This document shows positions 1,796-61,194 of a stretch of DNA of 64,000 nucleotides, one piece after another. The stretch's first letter is position 1. Each line of letters opens with the position of its first letter. The notes below the pieces were generated by a model, which was given only the letters and a program-made list of their open reading frames with translations, was not told the origin of the DNA and ran no database searches. Source of the stretch: Thuidium tamariscinum (Eukaryota > Streptophyta > Bryopsida > Hypnales > Thuidiaceae); assembly GCA_947034885.2 (NCBI GenBank), contig OX344749.2, positions 13,345,501-13,409,500 on the forward strand, read 5' to 3'. Made by a program: the position numbers and the translations under genes.

Positions 1796-3246
1796 GGGTC
1801 ATTGCAAGAAACACTTATGATTTTTGGCTCAAAATAGCCTATTTCAATGAGTCCTATGACTTTGGGAATAAATTTTCTTAAAATAAAATAAAATATGGAT
1901 AATTTGGTGAGCAATGAGAATATTGTGTCTTTTAACCCCTAAAGCCCTGAGGTGTGTTTTTTGGCATTATAAATTTTTTGGGCAGCTCACTACAAATGGA
2001 GTTTTTATTTTTTTTCTTTGAAATTTTTACACAAGATGGGCCCAAGGATTAGCTTTGAGGCCCAACAGTTTTCGTAACTTTTGACTTTGTGGTTAAAAAG
2101 TTATGGCATGATATGTCGTTTTCTTTACTTGGAGGGCAACCCGAGAAGCTGAAAAAAATTCTTTTAAAAACTTTTTTTTCAAAAGTAAAATTTCAAATTG
2201 ATTCTTTAGGTTTTTATAAATATGTAAAGCTTTGTTTCATTCCATTTGGATTAAGGAGTCAAAAGTTATGAATAATTTTAGTTTGCAGGTAGGTATCGTT
2301 TTTAAAAACTCCATACCTACCTACAAACTAAAATTGCTCATTACTTTTGACTCCTTAATCCAAATGGAATGAAACAAATCATCCTATGTCTATAAAAATC
2401 TAAAGAATCAATTTGGAATTTTACTTTTGAAAAAAAAGTTTTTTTAAAGGAGTTTTTTCAGCTGCCCGAGCTGCCCTCCGAGTAAAGAAAACGACATACC
2501 ATGCCATAACTTTTTAACCACAAAGTCAAAAGTTACAAAAATTGTTGGGCCTTAAAGCTACTTCTCGGGCCCATCTTGTGTAAAAAAACAAAGAAAAAAA
2601 AGAAAAAATCCATTTGTAGTTAGCTATCCAAAAAAATTATAATGCCAAAAAACACACATCAAGGCTTTAGGGGTTAAAATTCAAACCTAAGAGAATTTAA
2701 CTCTAAAAGTTATGCACAAAAAAATCACAATAGAAAATACAATGAAAATAGACACTTTGATGTTTGATTTTTTTTTAAATAGTGAAAAAATTCAATAAAA
2801 TTTGATAAAATAACCTATTTCTTCTAACCTCAAGATGCTTGCTTCAACAATTTTCATCTTCAAGAAAAATAAATTGTCTTCTCTACACATGTGCAAAGGT
2901 AGTTTATTTTGAGCACATGTGAAAGTTGGAAAATTTACTATTTTTTAAAAATGTCTTCATGGTCTTGTGAAACTATAGTAAAAGTCTTTGCATGCTAATT
3001 TTGACCTTTGCATTTTGGGGTCAAAAATAGAACTAAAACCCCCCAAAATGGTTAAAGTAGACATCCAATTGGGGGCTATTTAAAAATAGTAAAATAATTT
3101 AAAATTAAAAAAATTAGTTCTAGAACTATTATATGTACCTTCATTTCAAGTTTCATGTGAAATGAACAAACAACGTAAAAGTTATGAGTAAAAAACCACT
3201 TTTCCAAGGGGATAAAAAATAGGACAAGAGTTTCTTGCAATCACCC
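1796..3246. mobile_element. Family A element (GGGTGATTGCAAG ends), copy A1, with nested insertion
   Basis: The left end reads GGGTCATTGCAAGAAACACT and the right end is the inverse (GTTTCTTGCAATCACCC). The 4 nt outside each end are AATT, a possible short target duplication. The inner right part (about 3000-3100) matches copy A5 at 59.76-59.86 kb. A TTAA-bounded palindrome (1932-2677) sits inside, so without it the element is about 700 bp, the size of A3 and A5. No transposase frame is present, so this is a non-autonomous element. Confidence 0.8.
1932..2677. mobile_element. Family B (TTAA-type) foldback, copy B1
   Basis: A nearly perfect palindrome. The left arm from TTAACCCCTAAAGCC pairs with the right arm ending GGCTTTAGGGGTTAA. 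Paired positions sum to 4609 both at the outer ends and next to the loop (2297-2312), so the arms carry no net length difference. TTAA lies at both termini (1932-1935 and 2674-2677). Each arm matches the right-hand half of copies B2 (about 6.5-6.89 kb) and B5 (about 37.4-37.78 kb), so B1 is two right halves joined head to head. It lies inside element A1 and must be younger than it. Confidence 0.9.
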
Positions 3247-5947
3247 AATTATAGAAATATAGTCATATTTTAGTCATACCGGACAAATCAGACAAGCAAT
3301 CATTCTTTTTGGTAGTCATTTATACCCCCGATTTCTTATAGTGTCACCTCCTAAATGAGCCCCCATCCAAGGTAAACAACTAATTACTTTGTCTTTCCTT
3401 TAATTTTGTTGGTTGACTATTTCTACATGTAGCCATTACAAGTCCAAGTTAGAATGTTAAGATAGTGTGAATTCCAATTTTTAAATTTGAAATCTTATAT
3501 ATTATGTTTAGAGGTTTCCAAAAATGTATGACACTTAGAAATAGACTTAGAATGAGTAAGATATGAATAAATGAAGTTTAGTACTTAGAATGGATAAAAT
3601 CTAGTTAAACTTGGAAAGTTAGGACAAGATTAGAAAATTAGAGAGTAGCAATTGCCTAGAATGTATAAGTAAAACTGAAAAATATTTTTGAATTGCAAAT
3701 TAGGAGAAAATGGTGCATGAAGTTTTAAGAACTAATTAGCAAACAAACTTCATCCATGCATAACTTCTAGAAAGAAAATCCAAATTACAAATGTAATAGA
3801 GTTTTAGAAATATAAAGCTAGTATCTATAAGATTTTTTTTCTAGATATTGTAAAATTTTAAGAGTTGAACTAAGTCCTAAGATCAGAAGAACCCCAACCA
3901 ATTACTTAAAGTAAAAATGGAAGTAAGAATGGAAGTAAGAAGTTATGAATATAGGCTTTTAGGACTAGTTGATAGGACTTTATAGATACTTCATCATTAG
4001 AAAAAGACCAAAAATACAAGAAAAAATAGAAGAATGAATTTTTAATAAGTAATTGGATGAAAAATTAGGAAAAGTGAATAATTAGATCCAAACTTGTAGT
4101 TTAGGTATTAGCCTTGACTGTCCTGGCCGTGCTACACAGAGTTTGCCCTCTATGGACTACTTTGCAGGAAAAAATAGACATGTAAATCAGAAACTAAGAT
4201 TGGGACGACTCAATTGCTAAATTTGACTAATGACTACAATTTGTAGTGCTCATGAAATTTGTGGAACTTTTGATTGATTGGATTTAGAGAGCATAATAGT
4301 CAAAGCTGCATTGACAATTTGGAAAAGGTAGAATTTTGGAGGGGTTCATAACTTAGAAACACTTGCACAACCTGAAGAAGTAGTCCCTATCTTTCAAATT
4401 TTGCCCCAATATGTACAAAGAAACTTCCTTGAAGGCCACCAATTTTTACACTTTTTTGACATTTGAAAGATACATTTTCCAAGCCACAAATAGAAAAGTA
4501 AAACATTGCATTGTATACTCAAAATGCCATCAGCACTGGGTATGGGACTAATTTACATGTTAGAGCCTATCTTAGACGTATAGCTATAGATAAGCCAACC
4601 ACCTTAAGAATTCCCCCCACCATAGGCCAATTGTTGCCTTCAATGGAACCACCTACCTCAAGTACACCGTAACCAAAGCACAACCACAAAGGAGAGAAAA
4701 TGATGCAACCAATTTGACATTACATGATGTAATAAAAGTAAGGTGTCATGGAAGCAATTGAAAATTCAATATTCATGACTTCAAGTTTATATTACAAATA
4801 GAATGAATGACTATGTGTTCAAACAGAGATACTTATAGGATGGTTAAAGTAGTCAAAAAATATATAAAACAAAGAATAAAAGTCCTTACAAACCTAATAC
4901 TAGAAAGGTAGGCTTGTCTTGCCAAAAACCCTATGTTGAGTATAAAAAAAACGCATATTCAAGAAACCCTAATATCCAAATGGTCTTGCAATAGTCCCCA
5001 AAAGAATTGGAATGCCTTAGATGCCACTGCTTCAAAATCCTAAACAACTAAGCGCCTATTGTATCAATCACAAGTACCAATGTAAGCAAGAAACACCAAA
5101 ATGCCCAAAGAAGCTTAAAAAGACATCAACAATGAGTAAAAGAGTCTAAAACCACACACCCTCATTTCTCCCTCTAACATCACTATAATGTACCTATAAA
5201 TCAAAACTGATTGTACCATTTTGTAATGAACACTCATACTACAAAACCACTATGCCCTTCTTTTACACACAATCAAAGCCAAAAACAAAACCATTGTAGT
5301 GCCAACTAGGAGAAGCCCCATGCGCGCTAAAAAATCTCAATGACATTGCATTGGCCCTTACTAGTGGTCCCAGTCATTGAAATTTGGAATTCACTCGCCA
5401 ATAATGTGATTTCATTGTACCTCGCATTTCTCCTACGCACCCAAGCTGATGTATTGCAAGTCTCTCCACCATCATCCCATTCTAGGGCATCATTCTCATA
5501 CCCTTCTTCTATCATATACCTTTCCCAAGGTAATACAACCATCTTTGGACCCAATAAGCTGGAAATAAGATTTTGGATGCCCTAAATTTTCCTTTAGGTG
5601 CTTTCGGGTTAATCAATGACCTGAGTGGATAAAAAAAGTTTCAAGTTAAATTGGAATAGGGAACGAGGATAAAATTGTGGATGAAGTTATTAGCCTTTCT
5701 AAAGGCTAAACTTCATCCACCTATAACTTTGGCTAGGAAGGTTGGATAGGAGTAAAGTTTATAGTTTCGGAAAGGCCATAGAATTTTCTACAATTTTGCA
5801 TCATTAAATATAAGCTATCTTTATTTTCACAAAAAATCACTACGGCTTGATTTTTTGGCCTATAATCTTTTTTGTTGCATTTATGTCATATTTCTTGGTT
5901 GTTTTGCAAGTTTGAGTATACTAAGGTACACTATAAAGATCCATTGC
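3247..5947. other. AT-rich intergenic sequence, no gene seen
   Basis: No convincing gene. The reading frames at about 5.33-5.58 kb on both strands overlap each other and match no family I know. A short inverted repeat lies at 5677-5720. Confidence 0.5.
5677..5720. repeat. Short inverted repeat
   Basis: GTGGATGAAGTT at 5677-5688 is the inverse of AACTTCATCCAC at 5709-5720, and the stem continues inward through AGCCTTT/AAAGGCT. A related AACTTCATCCA phrase occurs near 3.75 kb, so it may be part of a dispersed repeat. Confidence 0.6.
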
Positions 5948-6893
5948 TTAACCTTTGAATGGTTTTGACTAAGTTTTCACCAAAACCACTCCAAAATTGC
6001 CATTTCTAATACATGTACCAAAACTTAGAAAAAATAACATTATTTGACACATATAACTATGGGATCCTATATTAGGTTTGTTTGTAAAGATGTAGAAAAA
6101 ATTTCAAATTTTTTCACTATGTAGATTGCAAGATATTAGCATTTGAAGTGATAAGAACCATTTTTTTGGCCCAGTAAAAAATTGGGTAGTTGTACTTCAC
6201 AAGGTCACATTTGTATTAAAAAAAATTTAATTGGTGGTTACTTTTTGGATTCATTCTTGAAGTCAAGTTTTCTATGTGATTAAAAAATTTGGAATTGTAC
6301 AACATATGGGAAAAAAATAGTAAATAAAGAGAAGTAGAAAATGAGTCAAAATACTAAATTGTAAGCAATTTATTTATGGAATTTTAAAATGTCAATCCCG
6401 ATGGTTTAAATGTTATAATAATTAAAAAATATACACCTAATGTTTTAATTTTTGTCCAAAAATATTAAGAATTTAATTAAACAAAGAATTTCAAACTTTT
6501 TTTTGTAGTATAGAGATTCTATAACTAGTTGTAAACTACTCCAAACTAAAAATCCTCATAAGTTTTGACTCATTGATCAAAATGGAATGATTCAAATTTT
6601 TCCACTTAGATAAAAATCTGATAAATCAATTTCAAATTTTTATTTCTTCAAAAAATAATTTTCAAATCAATTTTTTTGGCTACTCAGACTGCTTGCTAAA
6701 CAATGAAAACTACATATCTTACAATAATTTTTGAACTATGTACTCAAAAGCTATGAAAATTGTTGGGCCCTGAAGCTACTTCTTGGGCACATGTTTTGTG
6801 ACAATTTCAAAGAAAAAAAAAATCTCCATTTGTAGTAAGCTGCTTAAAATTGCTATGTTGTTGAAAAATGCAGTTTGGATGTTTAGGGATTAA
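5948..6893. mobile_element. Family B (TTAA-type) element, copy B2
   Basis: Left terminus TTAACCTTTGAATGG, right terminus GTTTAGGGATTAA, so TTAA lies at 5948-5951 and 6890-6893. The body aligns over most of its length with B5 (36829-37782) and the left part of B11 (60624-61194): shared phrases include GATTGCAAGATATTAG, GGAATTGTACAACATA and AATGTTATAAT-like text, in the same order. There is no coding frame. It is a non-autonomous relative of a TTAA-targeting transposon. Confidence 0.82.
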
Positions 6894-7910
6894 AAGGCAC
6901 AATGGACTAATATTTAGGCATCCTATTAGTTTTAAAAAGAAAAGATAACTAAGAACTTGGTTGTGTATGATTATTTTATCAATAGTGGGTAAATAAGCAC
7001 TCACATACACAAATCTAACTTTGCTTCTAAGTGCTCGAAGACCTTGTTAGCAAAAACTTTTGAGAACAAAGTAGTTTTTTTATATATGATACAATAGATC
7101 ATTCTATTACCAACAACAATTTCTCCACAATTATACTTGCAATGACACTTGGCATCTTTGTGAACAAGAGATAGCTACATAGCTATTTTTTTCATTAAAT
7201 GTTTTTTTAAGGTTCTAGGAGATTGTTTTGGGATTGTTTACCAAAACTGTTCCTTGTACCATTGACCAACCATTACTCATCTAATTTTTTGAATTTCAAA
7301 CAAAAATTAAAATTTATTTTATTCCAAGAATTTCAAAAGATATAAAAGAACTAAAGATTGATTAATTATTTTTCAAAAAAATATATTTCAAAAAAATTAA
7401 TAATTAATCTTTAAAAAAAATAATTAATATTACCTCATGAGGCAATATCTTGACCACATTAGATTGCTTATTTAGTAGAGTTCTTGGCATTCCCAATGCA
7501 TTTGCAATGAATTCCTACAATATGGGAACTTGCAATCTTCTAAAGGCCTTCAAAATGGATCAAATAATACCAAATCATCTTACACATGGAGGATGTCCAA
7601 AAATAAAATTAAGCAACTTCATAAAAAAGATTTCAAATTTTTTTGGAATATTCATTTTTTTGAATACTTAGAGTATCAAAGGTCAATATAAAGCTTTACT
7701 TCTCTAAATAAAGCCCCCCTTCTATGAATTTACATTAGAATTTGTAAAATTGGCTTTAAAATTGTTCTAAAATTACCATTTTTAGTGCATTGTATGAAAA
7801 ATTAGAAAAAAAATCTATTTTCAAATGCATATCCATTTTTTGAACTACTCTAAGAATGCATGGGAAAAAATTTAACCCATTTAGCTTCATAGACTGCAAG
7901 ATATAAGTGC
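6894..7910. other. AT-rich sequence with a family B fragment
   Basis: No gene seen. From about 7745 to 7910 the sequence resembles the left part of family B copies (ATTACCATTTTTAGTGCAT, then AGACTGCAAGATATAAGTG), so this is a decayed fragment. The D1 element interrupts it. Confidence 0.5.
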
Positions 7911-8190
7911 CATTAGAGGATTTTTGAGGCCATTGGAAGACTATGGGTTCTCGAATTGTGGGAACATAGTTTCTGCCATGTGAATAGAAATTTGATGTAG
8001 TCGAGAGAGTGCCATGTCGTAAAAAGAAAAATTTGAAATTTTTTTTTGGACTTTTTTTCATATTTCAGGACCCAGTTTTTTTTTTTTTTTTTTGGGTAAA
8101 TGTTGGCCTGACAGTGGCCAGAAGTTGCGGGAACAGTTTCAAGGAACAACCCCGAAACGGCCCTTTGGAGGCCTCAAATCCCCTCTAATG
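7911..8190. mobile_element. Family D MITE (CATTAGAGG ends), copy D1
   Basis: Begins CATTAGAGGATTTTTGAGGCC and ends with the inverse, GGCCTCAAATCCCCTCTAATG. Its right half, read on the minus strand, matches the left half of D3 at 53.88 kb (GGGCTGTTTCGGGG, then GGCCAACATTTACC). Length 280 bp, no coding content. It is inserted in a family B fragment. I could not fix the target-site duplication. Confidence 0.8.
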
Positions 8191-8968: not shown

Positions 8969-9120
8969 TTAACCCATTAAGGACCAGGTCGATGACTAGT
9001 TGATGACTCTAGGTGAAAATGACAGGTTTTCATTAGTAGTCACTTCAGCTGCTAATGAAAACATGTCATTTTCAACCAGATATTCATTTGCAGTCATCGA
9101 CCTGGTCCTTAATGGGTTAA
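8969..9120. mobile_element. Small family B-like MITE with TTAA ends, copy B3
   Basis: A 152-bp element. The left terminus TTAACCCATTAAGGACCAGG is the exact inverse of the right terminus CCTGGTCCTTAATGGGTTAA, and pairing continues through GTCGATGACT. TTAA lies at 8969-8972 and 9117-9120. An inner ATGACAGGTTTTCATTAG / CTAATGAAAACATGTCAT pair extends the palindrome, so the whole element can fold on itself. It lies about 1.07 kb upstream of the ABA4-like start codon. Confidence 0.88.
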
Positions 9121-24327: not shown

Positions 24328-24454
24328 GGCCGATTTGGCCGATTATCCCTCCTCTGACAGGGTAGGAACCCCGGGTAAACAATGTTATGAGCCAGGAACC
24401 AAAATATCCATTTCTTTTCTTTCCATGGAAGCGACGACACCTTTCAGTTTGTAA

Positions 24455-24472: not shown

Positions 24473-24473
24473 C

Positions 24474-33274: not shown

Positions 33275-35514
33275 TGTATAGGACATATTTCAAGGAGTTT
33301 TTGTTCATTGAAAACTTGACTTCTTCTTGAATTTTAACTTAGGATGAAAGATCACTATTTTATTTTTAACATATATCTTTGCAAAGTTGTTGGGAACTTT
33401 CTAATGGTACATCATACACTTAAATTTAGTGATAGCCTTACTTGCAAAAGTCTATAAAACCCTGTAACACCATTGCAAACATTAAGTATCATATAAATGT
33501 TAGTGAATCCTTCTATATAAGATAGAAGTGTAGATGTTCATCCTCAGAATCTTGTCTAAAAAAAGGAAGGTATTGCACAATAGTTTGACCTCTAATATGT
33601 GCTCTTGGTGTTTTTTAAGCCAATGATTTATATGATATTAATAAAGATGATTTCCAAGGTGATCAACAAGTCTTTCAAGTGTTAAAGAATTGACAACATC
33701 AAAATTCTAAATTTTGGTACAATCACTTTAGATTACTTTGACATCAAAACTTCAAGACAATCCTAATCTTTCACTTGTTTCCTCCATATACACATTGAAA
33801 TGAATGGCAATTGTTTTCACGGTTGATGTTAGAAAGAAAGCATTGCATTTCAAATAACCTCCATTGTAAGTGTAGTTGGTCTTTTTTTAATTTTTTACAA
33901 AGACGCTATAAAATGTTATAGTGGTGCTCCAAATTTAAACATTCATCCACATATTGGATAGAAAATATCACATAAATATAGTTTTCATGTACAATCTAGT
34001 GATTTTATCTAAGATTTTTTATTAATACAAAGTTTTCTAGCAAAAAACTTAATACTTTTTTTCTATTTTTTCACCAAATTATTTTTTTATGCACTCTAGC
34101 TCCAAAAAGAAAAAAGAAAAAAACTGGAGTATAGAGAAGGATTGGCACCTCCCTCTTTGAATATTTTTTGGTCTATAAAATTAGTTTTGGTCAATGCTAA
34201 AAATAGAATTTCCCCAACAGTCTTTTTTTCTCATAGAAAGAACGGTTTTTGAAAATAAATCCCCTTAAGTTTTGGCATCTATTTTAATACTACTTTCTGC
34301 CCAACTTGCCTACAACCACAGTAGTACTGATACCCTGATAGCCGATTGCACTTTCAAAATATTCACTTTCTGTGTTTCAATTTGAACATCAAAATGAAAC
34401 TTGCCAAGTTTATTCTCTATCTCAATTTACAATTTTGAAAATTACCAATAGTTCAATGAAATATTTCCAATAAAATTTCAATGAAGCATTAGCAATGAAG
34501 TTCAATATGTCAAAGTTCAATTGATTTTTATTCTTATTTTAAATTTTATTTTTGTATTTTAATTTTAATTTTGAAAAACTCTTTCATTCTGAACTCTATC
34601 ATCAGCAAGAAGTCAAATTCATTGAAAATATTTTGTAATTGACACAATTTCCATAGTAAATTCTATTTCAAGAAATCACTATCTCTTCCCTATACTAGCG
34701 ACTCTTTGCCTTGAAAATCCACAGGTCCTATATTAAGGGTAGTCACACCTTCTTCACTATTCTAAAGAATGGGGACATGGAGCTTAAGGATTGGCTTTCT
34801 GCAGGCTATGAAGAGCAAAATATATTTGTTTGAAGAATGCTTCATGATGTCTATTATTGTCTTCCAGAGGTGAATAATGGGCATTGTGAAGCATTCTCCA
34901 AACAAGTATATTCTACTCTATTTTTCACTCTCTTTTGTTGGTTGGTTCTTTCTGCTATACCTTTGTAGCTTTTGCATTACTTTCGGTCTCTTCATCCTCC
35001 ATTCTTCAGAAACCATTTGCTATATATGTTTGATGGGTGTGACATCTTCTTCATGGATCCACAATCTCCATTGGTTCCTCGTTTTTCTCATTCTTTAGAG
35101 AATTTGTACACAATGAAAAAGGTGTGACTACCCCTATTAACATCAAATTTTTTATATTTGGGATTTTTGATAGATATATAAATATGGTATACAATTCACA
35201 ACGGTCATATAGATATAGATACACAAATATGAATACAGTTTGATTCCTTATTAATAAGGACCACAAAGAAGAAGCCCCAACTTGTGAGTCCCAAGTATTG
35301 TACAACTAATTCAAAAGACTTAGTATATTCTTGTTTGATAAGAATAAATATTTATATAGTGTCAAATGTTGAAAATTTAGTATATGGCAATCTAATTTCA
35401 CTATTTTGTAGTAGTAGAAGTAGTATAATAATAAATAATTTGCATTCTATGATTTTTTTCTCTAGAAAGATTGAAAATTGGTTTCAATCTAGGTTTTCAA
35501 ATTTTATTTTAAAG
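33275..35514. other. AT-rich intergenic sequence, no gene seen
   Basis: Only short frames. Nothing beyond scattered similarity to other AT-rich repeats in the window. Confidence 0.5.
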
Positions 35515-35879
35515 TAGAGATTCTATAATTGAATGTGAACTAAAACTCCTCAATACTTTCATATGATAAATATAAATGGAATTATTCAATTTTTTTTATG
35601 TATATACAAATCTTTCAAAATTAAGTTCAAATTTTTATTTTTAAAAAGTGATTTTTTAAAGTTACATGTCTATGTTGAGAAAAGAACTATATAAGTATAT
35701 ATCATACAAAAACTTTTAACCATGTAGTCAAAAGTTATAAAAATTGTTGCACTCTAAGACTACTTTTTGCTCGCATTTTTTGTGAAACTTTTAAAGGAAG
35801 AAATTGAGAATCCTATTTGTTAATGGATGACCAAAAATGCTATTTTGGCAAGAAATGCTACTTGGTCCTTTAGGGTTTG
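35515..35879. mobile_element. Family B fragment (right half)
   Basis: Matches the right half of B2 and B5: AGAGATTCTATAA, then GTAGTCAAAAGTTATAAAAA and TTGGTCCTTTAGGG. The terminal TTAA is mutated (TTTGAA) and the left half is missing. Confidence 0.6.
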
Positions 35880-36290: not shown

Positions 36291-36828
36291 AATAGTTGTG
36301 GATGAAATGAAGTTTTTGAAGTCAACTATATATGTTATTTGAAATCTACTCTTGAAAATGAATATTTTGTTGCAAGTTGAAATTGAGAGTCTATACCCTC
36401 ATTTATCTACATAAAGTAGTATGGAAATTTTATTTAGGTTATGACATTCTATATAGTCTTTATAAACAATTAAAAATTTTTACAGAGTTTAAAATCATTC
36501 TCAAACAATAGGTATCGTTTTTCTTCACTATTTCTTTAAAAAAATTTCAAATTTTCAAATTTTCAAATCTTTTTAAAAAAAACACAAGAAGGCATTCAAT
36601 TTCATCTTCAAAATCTATATAGGATGACTATTGGTTATTGATACACTTACTTACACTATCTTCAAATTTATAACTTATCTTAACATATAGAAAATATGCC
36701 TACCTAGAATAAGACCTACACTTGGTCTAACTCATCATAAAATGAATAATTAGACCAAGCATAGGTTCCATGGCTTAGATTTTGTAGGCATGCTTTTCAT
36801 TAAATTAGGAAAGTCTTTTACCATTCAC
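36291..36828. other. AT-rich intergenic sequence, no gene seen
   Basis: No supported feature. Confidence 0.5.
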
Positions 36829-37782
36829 TTAACTGCTAAAGGTTTTTGACTTTGTTTTTACCAAAACCGCTTTTAAAATGTCATTTCTTAGACAACTACC
36901 AAATTTTAAGAAAAAAACATTTTTAGACAAAGATAACTTCAAAATCTTTTAGAACACAAGTTTAAGAAGATGTAGAAAACATTTCAGCAATTTCCGCAGT
37001 GTAGATTGCAAGATATTAGTGTTTGAAGTGACAAAAATCATGTTTTTACCACTGCGAAAATCCGGGCAGCTGCACTTTAGAAGACCATATTTGTATGGAA
37101 AAATGTCCAAAATGATTGTAATTCTTTGGATTCATTCTTCAAGTGAAGTTGTCTATATGCTTGAAAATTTTCAGATCATTTGGAATTGTACAACATATAG
37201 GAAAAAAATAGTAAGTAGATAGAAGTAGAAAATGAGCCAAAATACTAAATTATTAACAATTTATTTACAAAGTTAAAAGAAGACAATCCCAATGGTTGTA
37301 ATGTTGTGTTAAACAATATACACCCAATATTTTTATTTTGTTTCAAAAATATTTAAAATTGAATTAAATAAATAATTTCAAACTTTTTTTGCAGTGTAGA
37401 GATTCTATAACTAGCCACAAACTACCTCGAACTAAATATCCTCATAACTTTTGACTCATTAATCAAAATGGAATGATTCAAAGCTTTTCACTTAGATAAA
37501 AATCAAAGAAACAAATTTCAAATTTAAATTTCTTACAAAGGTAATTTTTAAAGAAGTTTTTTTTGGTACCTAGGTTGCTCACCGAACAAAGGAAACAACA
37601 TATCATGTCATAACTCTTTAACCATTTAGTCAAAAGTCATGAAAATTGTTGGGCCTTAAAATTACTCCTTGGGCACATGTTGTGTGAAAATTTCAAAGAA
37701 AAAAAATAAAACCTCCATCCTTAGTGAGTTGCCCAAAATCGTTATGTTGCCAAAACATACAGTTTGGTCCTTTAAGGGTTAA
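36829..37782. mobile_element. Family B (TTAA-type) element, copy B5
   Basis: Left terminus TTAACTGCTAAAGG, right terminus CCTTTAAGGGTTAA, TTAA at 36829-36832 and 37779-37782. Length 954 bp, nearly the same as B2 (946 bp), with which it aligns throughout. Its left half also aligns with B11. The short frame at 37019-37222 has a counterpart in B11, but it is just shared non-coding sequence. Confidence 0.85.
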
Positions 37783-38675
37783 ATCCTAAAGCCCCAAGGC
37801 CTCTTTTCCATCAATAAATACCCAAAACTACCATTTCTTTGGCAAAGAGTAAAAACCCTCTAAAAAAATTGAATATCTAACTATAGGATCTTGTACTAGA
37901 CTAGTGCAAGAATTTTTTAAATAAATTAAGAAAATTTTGACAACATGGATTTCAAAATATTTGCATTTAAAGTCACAAAGACAAAAACAAAATGCACCTT
38001 GGTAGTCTAGATTTTTGGCTTTGAATTTCTTAACTAAATATTTTATACAAGTAGATTATAATTTTTTATTATTTATCTTGAATAATTGAGTTGAGAGTCT
38101 AAGAATTTTTTTGAAAAAATTAAATTAAATTTCAGTCATCGAAAAATTATTAATTAGAAGTTTGTTCAAAATTGAAAGGAAAAATAAATTGTTGATAGCT
38201 CTTAGATGGAATTGAAACACACTAATGTCAACATGACATTGTTTTAGCTAAAGACCATGTTCTTGTTAAAAAAATTGAATTTTAAAATTGAATTCAAAAA
38301 TGAATCCTACAAGTTATATCTTAAAGAAGATGCTTTGATTGCCCAAATAATAGGAGTGTCTACAACTTTTATATATCAAATACAAATGGAATGAACCAAA
38401 GCTATTAATATAGATAAAAATACAGTTTGGAATTTTTTTTTTTTAATTATATTATTATTAGTTCTTTTTAGAGGGAGACTCTTCACCAAATTCAAATTTG
38501 GGCTTTTGTACCATTAGTTTTCCTCCTCAATACCAATTGAAGTAAAAACTATATTTCAAGAAAACTAATGCATTTATCTATCCTCACAAAAAGTTTCAAA
38601 AATGACAACAAATATTGAGACTAGAGGAGCTTGCTTGAAATCCATTTTGATTCCCAAGGGAACAATGGGGCTAAA
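37779..38675. mobile_element. Family B (TTAA-type) element, copy B6, abutting B5
   Basis: It uses the same TTAA (37779-37782) as the right end of B5 and starts TTAAATCCTAAAGCCCCAAGG. The body aligns with B9 (51937-52861): GAGAGTCTAAGAATTTTTTT-like, TAGATGGAATTGAAACACA, AATGGAATGAA. The right terminus (CAATGGGGCTAAATC) corresponds to the B9 end but has lost TTAA. Confidence 0.7.
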
Positions 38676-41600
38676 TCAATATATATTGGTGGAGTGAAAA
38701 TCACATATTTTTGCCTTATAGACAAATAAAAAATAATTTTATTTAAAAAATAAAAATTGAAGAATTGTGTATGTTAATGAATTTTCAAAGTCAAAACTAG
38801 AAGAATCTTTACAATGTTCAATAGATGTTTGAAGTGTCTTGAGAAAGACACATATACATTCACAAAAAACTTGTTGCTTTATGCTCTTAACGAAAGCACT
38901 ATATATAAACTAGGAGTCATTAAAAGCAAACTATTCTAGTTATATTGTTGACACTTCAATAAACACTTATTGATAAAAAAAAAATGGAGGAGAACACAAT
39001 CCAATAGTTCTAAGCTAGATGAACCCTTTATGAAATGCAACTCAATTTAGAGCTCTTTGTTTTGGTCCATTAATATTCTATTGCATTTTATAGTGTTTTT
39101 TATTGCATTGAATTTGCAATTGGAATTCAAAGTTTTGGATTTAAAAATGAAGGGGTTGGAATTGGATTAACTCTAGAAGAACCAAGGAACCTTTATGAAT
39201 GTATATTATATTAAAAATTTGGTGGTATTTTATCAAGATAGCATTGACCAAATACTTTTCAATACATAATAATTTAATGATTATGATAGTATTACAATTC
39301 ATATATTTAACCACATTGAAGAGCTATAATGTTAAATACATATCATTTAGAAGGATCCCAATGGTCTTTTAAGGTTAAGAAGTTACTATTTCATAAATTC
39401 TATAAAGCCACCCAGGATATAAGCTTCTACTGACAACAAAAAAGCTCATTTAATGTTTCAATGTACAAAAGGATGCTTTTGGATTTCTATTGATACCGTC
39501 TAGGGAAGTACAAATGCTACATTAGAATCCTATAGGGCAAGAATTGTTACCCTTTAGAGACCAAAAGGGAAAGTTGAATGTTTGTGTTTAGACTACCTAT
39601 AATATACTCCATATTGTTATTTCCAAAACTATGTTGACTTGTACATATGTGAAATAACTTCTAATCTATAGTTCTTGATAAAGAATAAAAATTTGTGAAT
39701 CCAATGATATATCTATGTATAGTTATAAAATAGCTAATAATAGAACTATAGTCATCCTAAATTTTTCATTTTTGACTATTTGTCTTATATAATGTAAATG
39801 TGGGCAATTTGTTGAATAGTTTTTACATTTGTAAAGGTTAATTCATAGACTAATTGTTAGATAGATCTAAAAGGTCTAATAACAAAAGATATGAATAGTG
39901 GCCAATTGACTTAGAGATTGTTCATTGTGAATAGTTGTCTACCTAATTAGATATAGCCAAAACAATTTGTTATTTCTATCTATTTCTCTTTTTCATTTTT
40001 TCTCTCCAATTTCTTCATAGCTCAAATTGTCTTCATTTTTTTCCTTGTAGTTTTTTTTATAACACTTGATTGTGATTTTATATTCTTTTCTATTAGCCAA
40101 CGATTGGCCGTTTACACTTTGTCAATTTGTCAATTGGCTAGTGATTGGCTTTATAAATAATAATTTATTAATTCTCTTTCCTAATCCAATACAAATTTCC
40201 CTACAAACAAACCTTTACTACTATACTATGATCAAAATAACAATTTCAACGGCGTTGTTAATTTTTGGCACAACATTTGGTGCCATTGCCTTTATAATGG
40301 AAGTATGTGAATGTTACTTAAGAAGCATGCAATTTGCTATTATGACATGAAATTGAGTCTAAGATTTAATTGTAATTTGATTTAAGAGTGAATTTTTGGG
40401 AAGACTTCTAAGGAGCATCAATTGGAAGGTGATCAAGTTGTCTAATGGAGTAAGTTACATGATCAACAATTTGTCAAGAGTGTGAATAGACTAGTGGATA
40501 CAACATCAATTTTCCATTTCTGCAATTCCATAAATCAAGGAGTTCTCCTATTTTAATATCTAATTTAAATGCGTCATTCAGTGAACATAGTTTAGTTAAT
40601 AGATTGTTTAGAATATGGATTGTAGAATAATTTATCATGTATAAAACTAATATGTGTAAATGATTTGAATCAAATTTAGTATCTTTGGAAACTTGACTAT
40701 AAGTCAAGTTGTCTATAATAAGTCCTATTTGAAAACAATTAGTGACTAGCAATTTGAATTTTGTCGATGAGTAATTAATAAGAATTTAAATTGACAAATT
40801 GTCCGATAGTTAAGTTCTGCTAAGTTCTATAGAATATCATGGTAAGTAATGTCTGATTTATAAACCAATTGCTAACAATTAGTCTATAGAAGGTACTTTT
40901 GAGTGTAGTCTAGCAGGACTAATTGACAAAGGATTCAACCAGGCCAGTAGTTTTAGGAAGAATTAGATTCTAGATAGAACTAATGCTATGGGTTCAGTCC
41001 ATAGAGACTAGAACCATAACAATTTGCCTTGGGTCTAGTATTTGAAGAGTCTAACAATGCGTATGGTCCTTGGATGTATCTATTGACAAATTGTTTCCTT
41101 ATCATTGTGAATTGGACAAATTGCCATTATTATTATCAATATTTTAAGTTGAAAATCAATCAATGGTACTAGTATGTAAGCATGAAAGTGTGAGCATGTG
41201 AGCCTTGAGCATATATATAAGTATATATCATACAATCATTGAAAGTGTTTATAACATAAACACTTATAATATACGTATTTACAACATATATACACTATTA
41301 ATATACAAGGTTACTATAATATAGACACTTATATCATAGGTGTATAGTTTTCTAGGCTCATAGACTCACACTTTTATACTCACATAATAGCAACCCTTGC
41401 ATTAGATAGGGACAAATTGACTTAGGACCGGGACTAGTTTGTTACTCATCTAAATTTGTGATTAGGCTATATAAATAGTGACTAAACAAATTGACATAGT
41501 AAAAGAACTTCATGGTAATTAAGGAATTTGGCCAAATGCTATTATTAATATTTGTATTATATATAACTTGTTGCAATGACTACGTTCACTAGTAGAAAAC

Positions 41601-42715: not shown

Positions 42716-43629
42716 TTAATCCCTTATAGACCATTATGTTTAGAGGCCCAAAACTACTAAAATAGTCATCTCCAAAACAAGGTCAAAATCTTTGTTGATA
42801 ATTTTATTTTAACAAATCCAACCATAGGTACTTTGATTGACTTGTTTAAGCACCGTATGTTGTTCTAAAATTTTAGAGCAAAAAGGTACCCACCGATTGT
42901 AAATTCAATAAGCCTAAATTCCAAAAAGTAGGCTTTTCTAGCCTTACTAAAATGTGAAGTTTTGTTTTTCAACATTTTTAGAAAAAAAAATCATATGTCC
43001 TACAATTTGTGCATTTTGTCAATAAGTTGAGGAATGGATTGAAAACATGTGAATTTTTTTAAGCAATAATGCTTTCATATTGACATTTAAAAAAAATGTA
43101 AAGTAGAAGGTTGTATTGAATTTTAAAAAATTGAATTTGTAAATAACTCTTAGAAGAAATTGAAAATTATTAATCTCAATGGTGAAATTTTTCTAATAAA
43201 AATTTAATATTCAATATTTAAATTCAAATTTCAAAATTTTTAAATAGGAAGTACACATCAATTTTGTATGTTTTGTCTACCTTCATTGCTTCCAAAATAA
43301 AACTCATGATAATTTTTACTTCATTATTTGGAACCAAATGGTTCAAATTTTTTGAGTAGATATCAATCTATACAATTCCCAATAGAAAACATTACATATC
43401 TTTTTGACAAATATTTGTTGTTGCCTAATTTAACATTGAAATCAAAAAAATTCTTCCAATTTTTGCAATATTTATTGGAATGACGCAAAACAAAGCTTCA
43501 CTTGTAGATTAAGATGAGTATCATCCATTCTAAAAAAATTCATGCAAAACTTCCAAACCATGAAGTCATTAGAGTCTGCATGAGTTTTCAAAAAATCCAA
43601 AGTGGACTCCTTAGTCCTTTAAGGGTTAA
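42716..43629. mobile_element. Family B (TTAA-type) element, copy B7
   Basis: Left terminus TTAATCCCTTATAGACC, right terminus GGTCCTTTAAGGGTTAA-like (TAGTCCTTTAAGGGTTAA), TTAA at 42716-42719 and 43626-43629. Length 914 bp. The interior is only distantly similar to B6 and B9, so it marks another subfamily. Confidence 0.72.
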
Positions 43630-44140
43630 GAGCTGAAAACTAATTTGGAAAGGTTAAAATACTTGAAATTTTTTTGAATAAATTTTCTTCAAAAGAAAAA
43701 TGTAATTGTCATCTAATCTAATTTGTTAAATATTTTTCGGAGCTTTATGAAATTAGTTATGAATTTTAAAGTTGAAATGCAATAGTCACTATAAACATCT
43801 ACTTCTTGAAATGTACACTAATTGTATTATTTAATACTCTAATCTTACAACTAGCCAATTTGAGCCTTTTACATTTTTTTGTACAATGTGAAATATATTT
43901 GATATATTTTGGTAAGCATAATTATCATTGCATCCTTACACAATTCCTGTCATGCATACCAAATTTCAATCTCAAAAAACCAAAATACATTTTTGGTGAA
44001 TTTTTGAAGTCAATTTTATGGTTTTACATAATATTCTATCGAGAAAAAATAATAATGAAATTTTAAAATCCAATTGCTTAGGTGTGTAGGGAACATCCAT
44101 ATGCACATCTTTCATATTAAGAAAACACCCACTTAATTAG
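43630..44140. other. AT-rich intergenic sequence, no gene seen
   Basis: An 86-codon plus-strand frame (43806-44066) matches nothing known. Confidence 0.5.
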
Positions 44141-44359
44141 TCAATGAAGAATTCAATGTGAGGTGTCATATGACCAAACTTTATAAATTAGATATTTTTA
44201 TATCTTAACTAGATTTTGGCAAAGTAATTGTACTATCATATTGAAAGGTATTGAAATAGTTATAATGCAAGGATCAAATAGAAAAATTTAGTTAAAGTAT
44301 AAAGATATCTATTTTTCAAAATATGGTCATATGATGCCTCACATTGAACTCTTCATTGA
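44141..44359. mobile_element. 219-bp foldback MITE
   Basis: TCAATGAAGAATTCAATGTG at the left is the inverse of CACATTGAACTCTTCATTGA at the right with one mismatch, and pairing continues for about 75 bp (GTCATATGACCA, TAGATAT, TAACTA). No coding content. It abuts the left end of B8. Confidence 0.75.
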
Positions 44360-44369
44360 TCATTTTTTT

Positions 44370-45009
44370 GGTACCTCTAACTGCCCAAGGCCTTTTCTAA
44401 GATTCTAGGAATTTTTTCTATATTGAATAAAAAGCCAACATTTTGATAAGCTTAATCAATTATTTTTTGAAATTTAACTGTATTAGATATGATAGAAATC
44501 ACTCAAGAAAAGAAAACATGAAATTCTCACTTATGGATTGAAAGATTATAGTAGTTGATGATAAAGGTGTTAAAAGTGCAAAAGTGACTTGAAGCCTTTC
44601 CATCCTCTTTTCACATGTCAAATCTAAAAAGTTGGTCACAAAAAAAAAATGATGTTATAGGGCCTAGATTGCATAATCCTAATCAATTTATGACTTCTCA
44701 AAATCTACTCCACAATTTTTTCAAATGAATTATGAGTGTGATTTTTTCTCCAAGATCTAGTGTATTAGAGGCTCATTTACAAGAACCTTCAATACTACAA
44801 AAAGTCAAGATTGCAATGAATACCAGCTTCTATCTTAATTAGAAAAATCACAATCAATCATTTTCAAGATTGGATTTTTGTTGCTTAAACTAGACTTCAC
44901 AAAGAAGTTTTAAAAAATATGAACTACTAAAAATAGCAATTTGGTTAGGTTTGATTTAACTTCAATATTGTGCAACCAAATTTGGGTGCCTTCAACATTT
45001 TAGGATTAA
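44370..45009. mobile_element. Family B element, copy B8, left TTAA lost
   Basis: Right terminus ATTTTAGGATTAA (TTAA 45006-45009). The left end GGTACCTCTAACTGCCCAAGG corresponds to the B4 and B6 left ends with TTAA mutated to GGTA. The body aligns with B4. Confidence 0.62.
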
Positions 45010-46973: not shown

Positions 46974-46976
46974 TTA

Positions 46977-47437: not shown

Positions 47438-47440
47438 TTA

Positions 47441-51936: not shown

Positions 51937-52861
51937 TTAACCCTGGAAGACCCAAGGCCATTTTTCTATCAAAAACCACTCAAAACTGCCATTTTTGCTC
52001 CATTCGTCTGAAAGATCCAAAAAGAGTGCTTTTATAGAATCTAACCATAAAATCTTGTGTTTTATTTTTTTGAAGTCATGTGGTAAAAATTTCATGAAGT
52101 TTGACCGCATAGATTGGAAGATATGAGCATTCAAAGTTGGAAAACATAGTTTTTTTAAACATTGCCTTCAATTTCAGATAACTTTGATTGCCATTTGTTG
52201 AATTTTTTTACACTATGGACTTTGAGTTGAAAAAAAATTGTATTTAAGAATTGTGTTGAAAGTCTAGGAATTTTTTTTTTTTTAAATGTTTGATTTTCAT
52301 TCCTTAAAAAATTATTAAGTAGAGGTAGGTTTAAGATTGAAAGAAAAATTAAATTGTGAATAGCTTTAAGATGGAATTGAAACACAATAATCCCAACCGT
52401 GAGATTGTTCTAGCAAGAAAATTTAACCTTGTCAAGCATTTTTTTTGAAAAATTGTAAAAAAAGCATTCAGAAATGAATCTTATATGTTATTTTTTCAAG
52501 AAGATGCTCAAACTGCCCAAAAAACAAGATTGTTCATAACTTTCACATAACTAATCCAAATGGAATGAATCAAAGCTTCACACATAGACAAAAATATAAT
52601 CTATAAGATTAAAAAAAAATTAATTTAATTTCAAGTTTTTGTGGATTTATTTTTTTGCTTGCTGAGTTAAAATCCGTACTTTTTGTTGTATAAATTTTGC
52701 TCTCGGGCACCAATTGAAATAAAAATTATATTCCCACAAAGCTAACCATTTTTCCTATCTTATGAAAAATTTTCAAAAATATTCATTAAAAATTGAGGTC
52801 TACGGAACCTATCCAAACTCCAAATTGTCCCTTGAGGGGACAATGGATTTTTAGGGATTAA
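51937..52861. mobile_element. Family B (TTAA-type) element, copy B9
   Basis: Left terminus TTAACCCTGGAAGACCCAAGG, right terminus TTTTTAGGGATTAA, TTAA at 51937-51940 and 52858-52861. Length 925 bp; aligns with B6. Confidence 0.8.
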
Positions 52862-55869: not shown

Positions 55870-56859
55870 GGGTGATTGCCAGAAACTTTTGTACTATTTG
55901 TTGTATTTCGTCACATCCTAGTTTTGGATTTGTTTTAGCTATAACTTTTGTGTTTTAGCTCCAAATGACTCAAAATTTATAGGGAATCTACTGATAGCTA
56001 TTATGTATCTATAATAAATTTTGGAGATTTCTCAAAAATAGTTTATTATTTTTAAATAGACCAAAAAATTTCTCACAATACTTGATTTAGGGCTTTTTAG
56101 CACTATTTATCTCCAAAAAAACATATTTTGACCTAAAACTTGGAGAGGATGGTCTCTTAGTAGATTTATAGCTATTTTTTAAAGGAATTCTAAAAATACT
56201 TATTTTTGTGTGTTGTAGAAGCCTACAAAGAGAGCTTCATTTTGCATTTTTTTCCAAAGGTATAAAACATTATTTTGGTGAGTTTTTTGGTCAAATCCCA
56301 TCACCAAGAAGTTTTTTCAAGTGTAATATTTTATATGTATTTCTTTTTTAGATCATTTTTTTTACAAATTAAAATGTCACAAGTTGTGTTTTCTTCACCA
56401 AAACTTTGGACATAGAATTCTTATAGAATTTTGGTGAAGGAAATATAACTTGTGACATTTTAATTTGTAAAAAATAGGATTTTTCTTTTAAAAACATCCA
56501 TAAAAATATAACATTTGAAAAAACTTTTTGGTGATGAGATTTGACCAAAAAACTCACCAAAATAATGTTTTATACCTTTGGAAAAAATGCAAAATGAGCT
56601 CTCTTTGTGGGCTTCTACAACACATAAAAATAAGTACTTTTAGAATTCCTTTGTAAAGTAGCTATAAATTTTGGGTCTTTTTAAAAATAATAAATTATTT
56701 TTGGAAAATCTTCAAAATTCATTATAGATACATAATAGCTATGAGTAGCTTTATTGTAAATTTTGAGTCATTTGGAGCTAAAACACAAAAGTTATGGCCA
56801 AAAAAAAAATCAAAAACTAGAATGTGACAAAAAGCTTTAAGTGTTTCTTGCAATCACCC
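55870..56859. mobile_element. Family A foldback element, copy A4
   Basis: Left end GGGTGATTGCCAGAAAC, right end GTGTTTCTTGCAATCACCC, with TTTT on both outer sides. The right half is the inverse of the left half: for example ACAAATTAAAATGTCACAAG at 56364 pairs with its inverse ending at 56468, and GAGTTTTTTGGTCAAAT near 56280 pairs near 56.54 kb. Each half matches the left half of A2. It is therefore a palindromic dimer of family A left halves, like B1 in family B. Confidence 0.85.
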
Positions 56860-57218
56860 TTTTCTACATTTCAACATTTTCCAAATTTTCATGAGTTATT
56901 TATGAAATTGACCTACATGTATAGTAAATTTATTTTGATACTTATTTACTAAAGTCATTGCTTGATGGTGTGGTGAGAAGAATAAGTTACTTTGCTTCTT
57001 GAACTTGCTTTTAATCTTGCCGTAAGCTTGGAGCATCATCACCATGCCTCTATTGTTTGTATGCAACTATCGAATCAATAGACAAAGGATTTGTATTTCA
57101 TGTCATAGCATGGGCTAACTTAGTCCCTTAATGCCGCAATCTTTTTTTGATAGTTTTCTTACTTTTGTTTATATTTTTGTACAAAATATCATTTATTGCA
57201 ATTTCGTGAAATTGATCA
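56860..57218. other. AT-rich intergenic sequence, no gene seen
   Basis: No supported feature. Confidence 0.5.
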
Positions 57219-58482
57219 TTAACCCCTAAACGTCCCGAAGGCCCACTGTGGCCGTATGTGGGAGTTTTTACCGTATTCGAAGGTTAGGACGTAGGTATTA
57301 GGGTTTCCACTGCACTGGAGAGTTGCAATGGCCTCAATTGCGCATCGAATGCTACTGAGCAATTCGAAAAATACAACATTCAGCGATCAAGGGCCTTGAA
57401 AATACGCTTCTGTGCATACGAATGGTGGAAGATGGCGTAGATTGGGGCACCCGATGGGGCGCAGGGTTTCCGGACGCATACGTGGAGGTATCCGTTTCCA
57501 TGTCGGCGCGGGAGAGCGATGTTCTGGCGGGAGATGGCTCTGCTTTGGATTCTGACGTGAAGAAGGGGGGCTGGTTGTTGCCATCATCAACAGAATTCTT
57601 CCGCGACGAGGTGCAAGGTGCAAAATTTGATCATGAGCAATTGCGGTAAGTAGTTTGTTGTGGCAATTTTGAATGACAGGAGCATGAGATTATGGTAGCT
57701 TCAAATTTTTCAGTACTAGATGACACGTGATGCATTTTGAAGCCATGACAAAAGTACTAAATAGAATTTCAGGGAATTGTGTCTCCTATGAGATTATAAA
57801 ATTTTCTCTTTCACCAACATGTATGAATCTTGATGTAGACTTGAACTTGTTCAATTGTTGCAACGAAGCATTTGTGCTCTGTGCGGTGTGTGGCGAGTGC
57901 GAACAGTTGCTCTTGGCACAGAACATGGATACGATGCCAGCACGATGTTGCACTTGAAGTCGTTATGTTCCCGCCATTGCCACGACTATCTGTATTGCCA
58001 ACATGTCCGAATTGTCGTGTTCACAGACGCAAATGTCATCGAGTCAAGTGTCCGTAGTCCGCCTTTGCCCGTCGGAGGGCCGGGTGACCCGCAGGTTGGC
58101 CATACGAAGTTTGTTGCCGTCACCGTTCCTTCATCGCTTCAAATAATCAGCTGAAATTTTTTGTCCTCATTTGTGTGACCATTTACTGAGAAACCACCGT
58201 AGCGATCTTCTTTTGTCCCATCGTGGATTTTTTCAGGAAATGTAGAAACACGGACGCCGACCATTTCACGGCACAGGAAACGCATCTGTGCCTAATTCTC
58301 TGTGTCGCTTCTACCAAGCGCTCTGCGAAATTTTGTCCTCATTACTAGTAATACAACATCGACATCGAAATGGCGGATTTTGCAAATTGACGTGGATTTT
58401 GGCCTCTTTTTAATTTTGTAGCATTCGTAGTTGCTGCATACGGTACCGTATCCCCAGGTCCCGAGGGCCGTTCACGGGTTAA
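57219..58482. mobile_element. TTAA-type element with possible transposase remnants, copy B10
   Basis: Left terminus TTAACCCCTAAACGTCCCG, right terminus GGGCCGTTCACGGGTTAA, TTAA at 57219-57222 and 58479-58482. At 1264 bp it is the longest uninterrupted member and has more GC and CpG than the others, as expected if it keeps former coding sequence (see 57422-58057). Confidence 0.75.
57422..58057 (+). pseudogene. Possible remnants of a piggyBac-type transposase gene
   Basis: A 75-codon frame (57422-57649) begins MVEDGVDWGTRWGAGF, is acidic in its middle and ends exactly at a donor-like GCG|GTAAGT. Further on, a frame ending at 58057 closes with CPNCRVHRRKCHRVKCP, a Cys-rich tail. PiggyBac transposases have an acidic N-terminus and a Cys-rich C-terminal finger, so this could be an internally deleted gene. 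No catalytic Asp-containing core is recognisable, so the identification rests mainly on the TTAA ends of the host element. Confidence 0.3.
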
Positions 58483-59275
58483 GCAAGTTTTTTCTTAAAG
58501 ATTTAAATATTTCATTGGATGAATGAAAAGTCAATTGCACGAAACAACACTTGCAAACACTACAAGAGATGCGGTTATTTTAAAGAAGAAAGATTAGTAA
58601 GAAATTACTTAAAAGTGCTTCATATTGCTGAAATGTCATGTTAGAAAGTGGGAATAAGTAAATTGAAGGGCAGAATGCTGATTAGTCATGACAATATATA
58701 GAAACATGTCAGTTTTGGTTGCACAGTTGTTTGGATAGTCTTTGAGCTTACTCTACTTCTAATCCCTCTGCCTCCTTATCTTCTTCTTCTCTCCACTATT
58801 CCCTCTCTTACTCATTCTTCTACGTTTGATTATCATATAATTTGACCTTTTAACACACTGGCCTTTCTCTACACCCTTAGGCTCTCCAACATCATATCTT
58901 GGTATAGTTTCTGAACCTTGTCTATTTTCTCACAAATTTTTTGAACCTTTTTGGACTTGAATTTGTTGAATTCTTCTTCCTTTTTTCTCCCCTTCCTCTT
59001 CATTCATCCTTCTTCTTTCACATTGTACTCCGTTTCCTGTACATCCTCGTTTTTTCCTCCAAAAACGGTCAAGTGGCCAATTCGTCTCATTGGTTGTAGC
59101 AAGGGGCACCCCTAGGGTTGGAAGGACAAAGCCATTTGAAGTTTAGTTGGCTAAGGATTGTTTGTCTCAGTTGTGGATTGAGGTGTAGTAACAAGAAGGA
59201 GTCTGATTTGAAGAAGGTTGGAATCGGTAGTAGTGGATTTGGGCAACCCGTTGAGTTTGTTAGGTTTTGTGAGGA
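58483..59275. other. Intergenic sequence with a pyrimidine-rich tract
   Basis: About 58.74-59.05 kb is strongly CT-rich on the plus strand (repeated CTTCTTC and CCTCC words). No gene recognised. Confidence 0.5.
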
Positions 59276-60021
59276 GGGTGATTGCAAGAAACACTTCACG
59301 TTTTTGGCTCAAAACGTTGTTTTTGGACATGGTACTGGCAGTACTATACGATCGTGACGATACAACGCGTCTGACTCACGCCTACAAATCTCAACTGTTG
59401 ATTTCGCGCGCTTGTAGATCTAGGCCGTTAGTGTAGTACTATGCAGTATTATAGACTACTACAAGTACTTCACAAGCCACATGGAGCATAAAATAGCAGA
59501 AAAAGGGTCTGTGGACCTTTTTATTTTTAATAATTAAAAAAAATCAAAAAATTATTTTAAAAATAATCCATTTTTCTAAACATAATTGTGTTCATATTGC
59601 AACAAAAAATTCCTCTAAATTTTTTTCCCTCTTTGTAGCATTTGTGCAAAGGAAGGTCACTTTGACCTCATGTAGACAATAGATATTTTACTTTTTTTTT
59701 ATAAAAACTCAATGTCAATCCTTGAAATGTTAATAGACCTCCAACTTGTCTAATTTGTGGCTTCAAATTCGGATTTTTGAGTCAAAAATAGGACTAAAAA
59801 CCTCCAAAATGGCCAAGGTAGACAACCAATTGGAGGCAGTTTAAAAATAGTAAAATAATTTTTTTTAAATTGAATAAATTACATAATATATAAAACTTTT
59901 GTGTGCACGTTCATTACAAATTTCAAGTTTATAGGGCAAAAGATGCAAAAGTTATGAGCAAAAAACTACTTGTTGGAGGTCAAGGGGACAAAAAAAGGAC
60001 AAGTGTTTCTTGCAATCACCC
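59276..60021. mobile_element. Family A element, copy A5
   Basis: Left end GGGTGATTGCAAGAAACACT, right end AGTGTTTCTTGCAATCACCC: the best preserved ends of the family. The 4 nt outside are AGGA and AGGT. The interior matches A1 at both ends (TTTTTGGCTCAAAA; TAGACA and CCAATTGG words). Length 746 bp. Confidence 0.88.
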
Positions 60022-60623
60022 AGGTGCATTGGTTTTGATTGGGAATTGGCAAGGTCACGGCTTGCAATCATGGAGTTGCCTCTCGATGTGTGATGTTGAT
60101 CTTCTCCATTTTTTAAATTGTTGTTTGGAAGCAATTAGGGAAGATTCGTTGTGTTTTGTTAAATTGTAAAAATTTGTCGTATATAATTGCACATGGGGAA
60201 GTAGGTCAGTTGCAATAGGTTTCACATGTTCATGCAACTACATGAGTTATATGATCCATTGAAGGGATTCTTGGTGAATAATACCCTTGTTATTGAAGCT
60301 AATGTCAATGCTTTGAAGGTAGTGGACTACTCATCGCTTGATTCGAAGGAGACTAAGTTTTTGTGGGCTTGAAGAATTAGGGTGCCACTTGCTACATGAA
60401 TTGGCTATTCTTCAAACTTTGTACCATCTCCCATTCTTCTGCAAGGTTTGTATTCTTGCCTTTCTTTCCCATTTTGTGGTGTTTTTAGCAACATAAGATA
60501 ATGAAGAAAATCACATTTGGGACCACTACTAGCTAGGCAGATTCCACATAAGATCTGTAAGCAAAGTGGGTACCAAAGAATGTAATGGAAACATGCATGT
60601 CACTTCTTAACCCACGTTTTTTG
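60022..60623. other. Mixed intergenic sequence, no gene recognised
   Basis: Short frames only. Confidence 0.5.
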
Positions 60624-61194
60624 TTAACCCCTATAGGTTTCTGATTGTGTTTTCACCAAAATTCCTTCAAAACTATCATTTCTTAGATAAGTATCAAATT
60701 TTAAGAAACAAACATTTTTGGACAAAAATAAGTGTAGGATCTTTTAGTATACTAATTTGAGAAGATGTGGAAAAAATTTCAGCAATTTTCGCAATGTAGA
60801 TTGCAAGATATTAGTATTTGAAAGAGATATAAATCATTTTTTTACCATTGCGAAAATCGGGCAGTTGCACTTCAGAAGACCATATTTTTATGGAAAAATG
60901 TCCAAAATGATTGTAACTCTTTGGATTCATTCTTCAAGTCAAGTTGGCTACATGCTTGAAAATTTTCAAATAATTTGGAATTGTACAACATATAGGAAAA
61001 AATAGTAAGTAGAAAGAAAAACAAAATGAGCCAAAATACTAAATTATGAAAAATTTATTTATAGAGTTAAAAAGAGACAATCCAATGGGTTATAATGTTG
61101 TGTTAAACAATATACATCCAATTTTTTATTATTTTTTTCAAAAATATTAAAAATTGAATTAAATAAAGAATTTCAAACTTTTTGTAGTATATTG
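60624..61194. mobile_element. Family B (TTAA-type) element, copy B11, truncated
   Basis: Left terminus TTAACCCCTATAGG. Aligns with the left 570 bp of B5 (GATTGCAAGATATTAGT, CATTGCGAAAATCGGGCAG, GGAATTGTACAACATATAGG), then stops at about 61194 where unrelated sequence begins. The right half and right TTAA are absent. Confidence 0.78.

Follow-up and report, generated by a model that had tools for sequence, protein, structure and literature searches.

Non-autonomous piggyBac-type elements and candidate transposase sources in the genome of the moss Thuidium tamariscinum

We analysed a 64,000-nucleotide stretch of the genome of the moss Thuidium tamariscinum, here called the window (positions 13,345,501-13,409,500 of contig C1, a 54.2-Mb contig; the genome comprises 363 Mb in 19 contigs). 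The window contains TTAA-bounded elements that very probably belong to the piggyBac superfamily as non-autonomous members, moved in trans by piggyBac transposases whose genes lie elsewhere in the moss genome. In particular, nine elements of 0.15-1.26 kb have TTAA at both ends and termini resembling CCCYTAAAGGACC, and four more, beginning at 35424, 37779, ~44134 and 60624, are one-ended, truncated or decayed (Table 1). An earlier note on this DNA had listed elements B1-B11 without coordinates; we redefined element boundaries from scratch.

In the proposed mechanism, a transposase encoded elsewhere in the genome would bind the short CCCYTAAAGGACC-type terminal repeats of the window elements, would excise an element at TTAA, and would insert it at another TTAA, so that TTAA would stand on both sides. 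That the genome's piggyBac transposases move the window families, and which transposase lineage does so, is what we infer from the evidence below.

Element ends and the TTAA target

Homology defines the following families in the window: F1 (~950 bp), F2 (~925 bp), F3, a 152-bp miniature inverted-repeat transposable element (MITE), a probable short MITE, and a 1264-bp element (memberships in Table 1). The earlier note had proposed one piggyBac-type MITE family; the piggyBac-type character stands, while the single family gives way to several. Most window elements are better named non-autonomous elements than MITEs, because they are 0.7-1.3 kb long with short terminal inverted repeats (TIRs): F1, F2 and F3 measure ~0.9-1.0 kb, while 8969-9120 fits a MITE in size and appears to be a true one. 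The CCC-rich inverted ends claimed in that note hold as an overall CCCYTAAAGGACC-like pattern but not at every end, several reading TCC, CTC, CTG, CCT or GCC.

The end motif is associated with TTAA well beyond its background frequency. Specifically, matches to CCCCTAAAGGACC, the window-type end consensus, at at least 9 of 13 bases follow 14 of 968 TTAA sites (both directions), as compared to 86 of 126,998 other positions, a ~21-fold excess calculated with a consensus derived partly from window copies. Twelve of the 14 TTAA-linked matches are ends that had been named beforehand, and a thirteenth (at 37779) belongs to a decayed F2-like element. The TTAA-bounded elements reported earlier are real. 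A scan for TIRs, taken alone, is weak evidence for elements, and we dropped it as proof: it returned 12 TTAA pairs with a 14-nt TIR (up to 3 mismatches), only 3 of which are outer ends of elements, and the tetramers AAAA (20), AATT (19) and TTTT (15) gave more pairs than TTAA.

Where alignment of homologous copies, taken from the window and from the loci that we read in the rest of the genome, sets the boundary, it coincides with TTAA for F1 at 9 of 9 left ends and 12 of 13 right ends, and for F2 at 3 of 3 left ends and 5 of 5 right ends; these counts take in the query copies and omit two F2 left rows that are F1 copies. The flanks outside these boundaries differ between copies.

The TTAA is a duplicated target, both for the window elements and for a 5,096-bp transposase-encoding family described below, because uninterrupted paralogues and a nested F1 insertion show a single four-base target. 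For 32 elements (one of which, at L012 7607-7737, has no left TTAA) we placed the two flanks on either side of a single TTAA and searched these joined sequences against the window and the loci read, so that the sites recovered are paralogous sites within this same genome rather than sites in a related accession. A relative spanning the joint was found for three, with no junction gap in any: a copy of the 5,096-bp family (L015; 295 of 369 positions identical, target CTAA), an F1 copy (L028; 164 of 214 identical, target TTTA), and window element 42716-43629 (uninterrupted paralogues in L013, L027 and L022, all CTAA, with only ~28 bases of left flank aligned). In addition, at L020/L032 an F1 copy is split by a second F1 copy; TTAA flanks the insert, beyond which the host F1 carries on from the point where it broke off. 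At the matching site, the reference F1 copy in the window has TTAG.

These sites also bear on whether TTAA is instead part of the TIR, with the elements being unclassified repeats. Being a palindrome that stands at almost all boundaries, TTAA does not discriminate through the boundaries alone; the uninterrupted paralogues, however, keep a single four-base target without a junction gap, and the F1 copy split by an insert picks up again at that same TTAA. We regard this alternative as extremely improbable. The three uninterrupted paralogous sites and the nested insertion bear out the earlier statement that TTAA is duplicated target and lies outside the inverted ends.

Transposase-encoding piggyBac elements

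The window holds no intact transposase, as had been noted: tblastn searches of the window with 10 transposase open reading frames (ORFs) revealed no remnant, no hit being better than E 0.10. The autonomous partner with a DDE_Tnp_1_7 domain that the earlier note suggested seeking is present in the rest of the genome. A DDE_Tnp_1_7 profile search of the genome gave 657 candidates at first look, of which 116, on contigs C1-C10, were scored; all 116 exceed the curated cut-off and span nearly the whole domain, and 74 have no internal stop (hand count). From sequence, the genome apparently holds intact and diverse piggyBac transposase elements.

Twenty loci that we read yielded ten elements running from TTAA-CCC to TTAA-CCC, with lengths of 5.0-5.9 kb and, for L010, 7.9 kb. 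Where several end pairs were candidates, the pair with the fewest mismatches was chosen; for L011 two pairs tied, and 2963-8008 was taken since an F1 copy ends at 1131. Among the ten, only one family has independent boundaries set by alignment. This family, a 5,096-bp element encoding 1009 amino acids (aa) with the DDE_Tnp_1_7 domain at 519-918, is present in 11 of the 20 loci (L015-L025) at 99.94-100% identity to the L016 copy; all 11 copies are TTAA-flanked and each lies in different surrounding DNA. Near-identity of 11 copies at 11 sites indicates that the family moved very recently.

The encoded proteins resemble known piggyBac transposases. A near full-length DDE_Tnp_1_7 domain is present in seven of eight proteins scanned, and in the eighth (L026, its ORF cut at the first ATG) the match starts at profile position 60. 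Proteins of the three lineages tested gave hits to piggyBat (9c0f) and to the 6x67 transposase, which we take to be Trichoplusia ni piggyBac, with E values of 1e-22 to 5e-33. The L016 aspartates align with those of piggyBat, and each of the ten transposase sequences read has three aspartates within conserved motifs and a tail rich in Cys, consistent with a predicted DDD triad and Cys-rich C terminus. The autonomous elements combine a DDE_Tnp_1_7 transposase, TTAA duplication and CCC-starting TIRs, the features by which piggyBac elements are recognised. Six transposase lineages (L010, L016, L026, L013/L014, L027 and L028) share 26-47% identity; identity within the L016 group (L009, L011, L012 and L016) is 64-73%, and L009, a piece of 358 aa, is 56% identical to L010, all these values being approximate because some ORFs are fragments. 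The four longest piggyBac ORFs, of 1009-1180 aa, are at L016 4097-7126, L014 4148-7411, L027 4104-7646 and L028 2644-5847, and the 500-700 aa ahead of DDE_Tnp_1_7 in these four have no Pfam match (first ATG assumed as start).

Several observations suggest a connection between the window families and these elements. Compared with the window-type consensus, 14 of 20 autonomous ends agree at at least 9 of 13 bases and the remaining six at 7 or 8; agreement is highest, at 11 of 13, for L013, L014 and one end of L026. At L017, a copy of the 5,096-bp family adjoins an F1 right end, with one TTAA common to both, and at L012 another piggyBac-type end adjoins the TTAA within the terminal repeat of a copy of the 8969-9120 MITE. 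The partners with DDE_Tnp_1_7 domains, the TTAA-CCC autonomous ends and the TTAA target duplication support the piggyBac-type assignment made earlier.

A number of points weigh against assigning the window elements to piggyBac. None of the ten autonomous elements read has the exact CCCCTAAAGGACC ends of F1 and F2; F1 compared with the autonomous elements gives matches only to other F1 copies; and for nine of these ten elements the ends come from a scan that required TTAA followed by CC. For 29 of the 32 joined-flank queries, the window and the loci read contain no uninterrupted site, and in four of four cases the uninterrupted relative departs from TTAA by a single base (CTAA, TTTA, CTAA and TTAG), a deviation that may reflect ascertainment, since only copies mutated to TTAA could have become targets. 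Comparison of 1932-2677 with the host repeat at 59275-60022, tried as another uninterrupted-site test, was set aside, the two being too diverged.

Part of this evidence would fit membership of the window families in another TTAA-targeting superfamily, Kolobok or Sola-like, with a convergent target site. TTAA targets are known for those superfamilies, and F1 is unlike the autonomous piggyBac elements read in all but its ends. Window-type ends, however, share as many as 11 of 13 bases with the ends of autonomous piggyBac elements in this moss, and CCCT, CCCTT and CCCAT starts have been reported for piggyBac (PMC10813416, PMC12732532; these and the other papers cited were available to us as excerpts). 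We consider a Kolobok or Sola-like origin unlikely, and favour piggyBac membership.

It could also be proposed that the piggyBac transposases come from animal or fungal contamination and that the window repeats are unrelated to them, in line with the description of piggyBac as found mainly in animals, fungi and protists (PMC12732532). Against this, DDE_Tnp_1_7 matches occur on every contig from C1 to C10, each 24-54 Mb long, and the autonomous copy at L017 adjoins an F1 element through a common TTAA. Furthermore, LEAFY on C4 is moss-like. Its C-terminal domain matches 4bhk, presumably from Physcomitrium patens, at 238 bits with 100 of 106 residues identical (own count), and four other sequences match it at no more than 173 bits, including PROTEIN LEAFY 2vy1, which we take to be from Arabidopsis. 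Contamination has next to no probability in our judgement, and transposases native to the moss remain the preferred source. A comparison of the L016 transposase with viral contigs confirmed no relative.

Age, abundance and window features

F1, the commonest family in the window, is old, unlike the 5,096-bp family, because the Kimura two-parameter distance to a majority consensus is 0.12-0.17 for the seven F1 copies from which it was built, two of which lie in the window. In a sample of ten 4-kb stretches at arbitrary round positions (40 kb), there are six F1, F2 or F3 matches of at least 387 bp, in five of the ten stretches and totalling ~3.8 kb, and no match to the MITE 8969-9120, to 57219-58482 or to the 5,096-bp family. 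These counts suggest, very roughly, tens of thousands of copies genome-wide. We see an even chance that the moss carries some six piggyBac lineages of deep divergence whose transposases are oversized and N-terminally extended, that at least one of these lineages is still transposing, and that piggyBac-driven non-autonomous elements account for several percent of the genome, perhaps following more than one horizontal acquisition.

Table 1. TTAA-bounded and related elements of the window (positions of the window; a dot marks no assigned strand)
Position	Strand	Family	Element	Boundaries and relationships
1932-2677	.	F1	Palindromic non-autonomous element, two F1 right ends facing	TTAA both sides; F1 right-end homology
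5948-6893	+	F1	Non-autonomous element, 946 bp	TTAA both sides; 76% to 36828-37783
8969-9120	.	152-bp MITE	MITE, 152 bp, ends CCCATTAAGGACC	TTAA both sides
32238-33274	+	F3	Element, 1037 bp, degraded CCC ends	TTAA both sides
35424-35877	+	F1	Right half, left-truncated	Outer TTAA position is CAAA (outward strand)
36829-37782	+	F1	Reference copy, 954 bp	TTAA both sides
37779-~38690	+	F2, decayed relative	F2-like decayed element	Right boundary unclear; homologous to 51937-52861, L019 and others
39167-39378	.	Probable short MITE	Probable short MITE, 212 bp	TTAA both sides
42716-43629	+	F2, decayed relative	F2-like element, 914 bp, inserted in another repeat	TTAA both sides; uninterrupted paralogues
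~44134-45009	+	F3	F3 relative	Right end TTAA; left boundary uncertain
51937-52861	+	F2	Element, 925 bp	TTAA both sides; 78% to L033 1630-2562
57219-58482	+	1264-bp element	Non-autonomous element, 1264 bp	TTAA both sides; ends CCCCTAAACGTCC / CCCGTGAACGGCC
60624-~61190	+	F1	Left part, right-truncated	87% to 36829-37388

Individual elements differ in structure. The palindromic F1 derivative at 1932-2677 has inverted arms of 98 nt at 89% identity, is self-complementary across 754 bp at 88.6%, and is nested inside another inverted-repeat element (1792-3250). The MITE at 8969-9120 has perfect inverted arms of 30 nt that take in the TTAA and one flanking base, and its copy at L012 7604-7737 is 90% identical across 144 of 152 bases. 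The L009 copy of the F3 element at 32238-33274 terminates at a TTAA at 7837, and the L011 copy stops at the identical query position (the L011 letters there were not read). The decayed element at 37779 adjoins the F1 reference copy, one TTAA being common to both, and a 78% homologue of the first 143 bases of 39167-39378 begins at the TTAA of L012:33. Element 57219-58482 has ends like those of the L016/L026 autonomous type; the window and the loci read contain no second copy of this element, and its protein-level similarity to the loci read (best E 0.011-0.059) was taken as chance.

The window also contains a second inverted-repeat family with ends GGGTGATTGCAAGAAACACTT, not TTAA-bounded, at 1792-3250 (the copy that hosts 1932-2677) and 59275-60022, with an arm at 56811-56860. 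Large palindromic repeats of ~0.9-1.0 kb lie at 55906-56832 (relatives in L026 and L016) and 61673-62675 (relative in L012), and a tandem array with a 136-bp unit in 3.7 copies lies at 897-1394. A single-frame 971-aa ORF with a Myb domain at 28835-31750 is, we assume, probably a clock-type plant CCA1/REVEILLE gene. Scans of the window for tRNAs and Rfam families gave no match.

Comparison with known piggyBac systems

The superfamily and its mechanism are already known; what stands out is the moss as host, together with how diverse the elements are, how large their transposases are and how recently one family multiplied. The earlier note had argued that a lineage with many piggyBac copies would be notable, piggyBac being rare or unreported in most seed plants; the many copies are borne out, and the lineage is that of a moss rather than a seed plant. 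In the excerpts seen, plants are listed among piggyBac hosts (PMC10140906, PMC10813416), plant occurrences were termed occasional in 2025 (PMC12732532), PiggyBac is one of seven angiosperm MITE superfamilies named (PMC10004981), and the animal piggyBac system was still to be tried in P. patens at the time of PMC5505980. No native moss piggyBac is reported in the titles, abstract openings and excerpts seen from the open-licence literature searched, other papers lying outside that search; a moss paper that the search returned (PMC10619864) was discarded, the match seen being the word "piggybacking". Many intact, diverse and very recently copied moss piggyBacs would, if confirmed, place the superfamily firmly in land plants, provide a native plant piggyBac source for tools, and make vertical versus horizontal origin testable over bryophyte genomes.

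The moss elements share with the piggyBac superfamily, as represented by T. ni piggyBac and bat piggyBat, the TTAA duplication, the short CCC-starting repeats, the DDE_Tnp_1_7 domain with three aspartates and the C-terminal Cys-rich segment; unlike in those systems, the host is a moss. They are longer than beetle piggyBacs (5.0-7.9 kb versus 2.07-3.47 kb), and their longest ORFs encode 1009-1180 aa versus 500-725 aa (PMC12732532). Angiosperm PiggyBac MITEs are likewise non-autonomous and TIR-bearing, but are grouped by TIR, target site duplication and interior similarity (PMC10004981), whereas the moss genome also has transposase-coding elements with similar ends. The C-fern, like the moss, is a land plant outside the seed plants with PiggyBac-labelled repeats; its genome has 1,230 such entries spanning 122 kb, or 0.00% of the assembly (PMC6890710), whereas in the moss 116 near full-length domains were scored and one family has 11 nearly identical copies.

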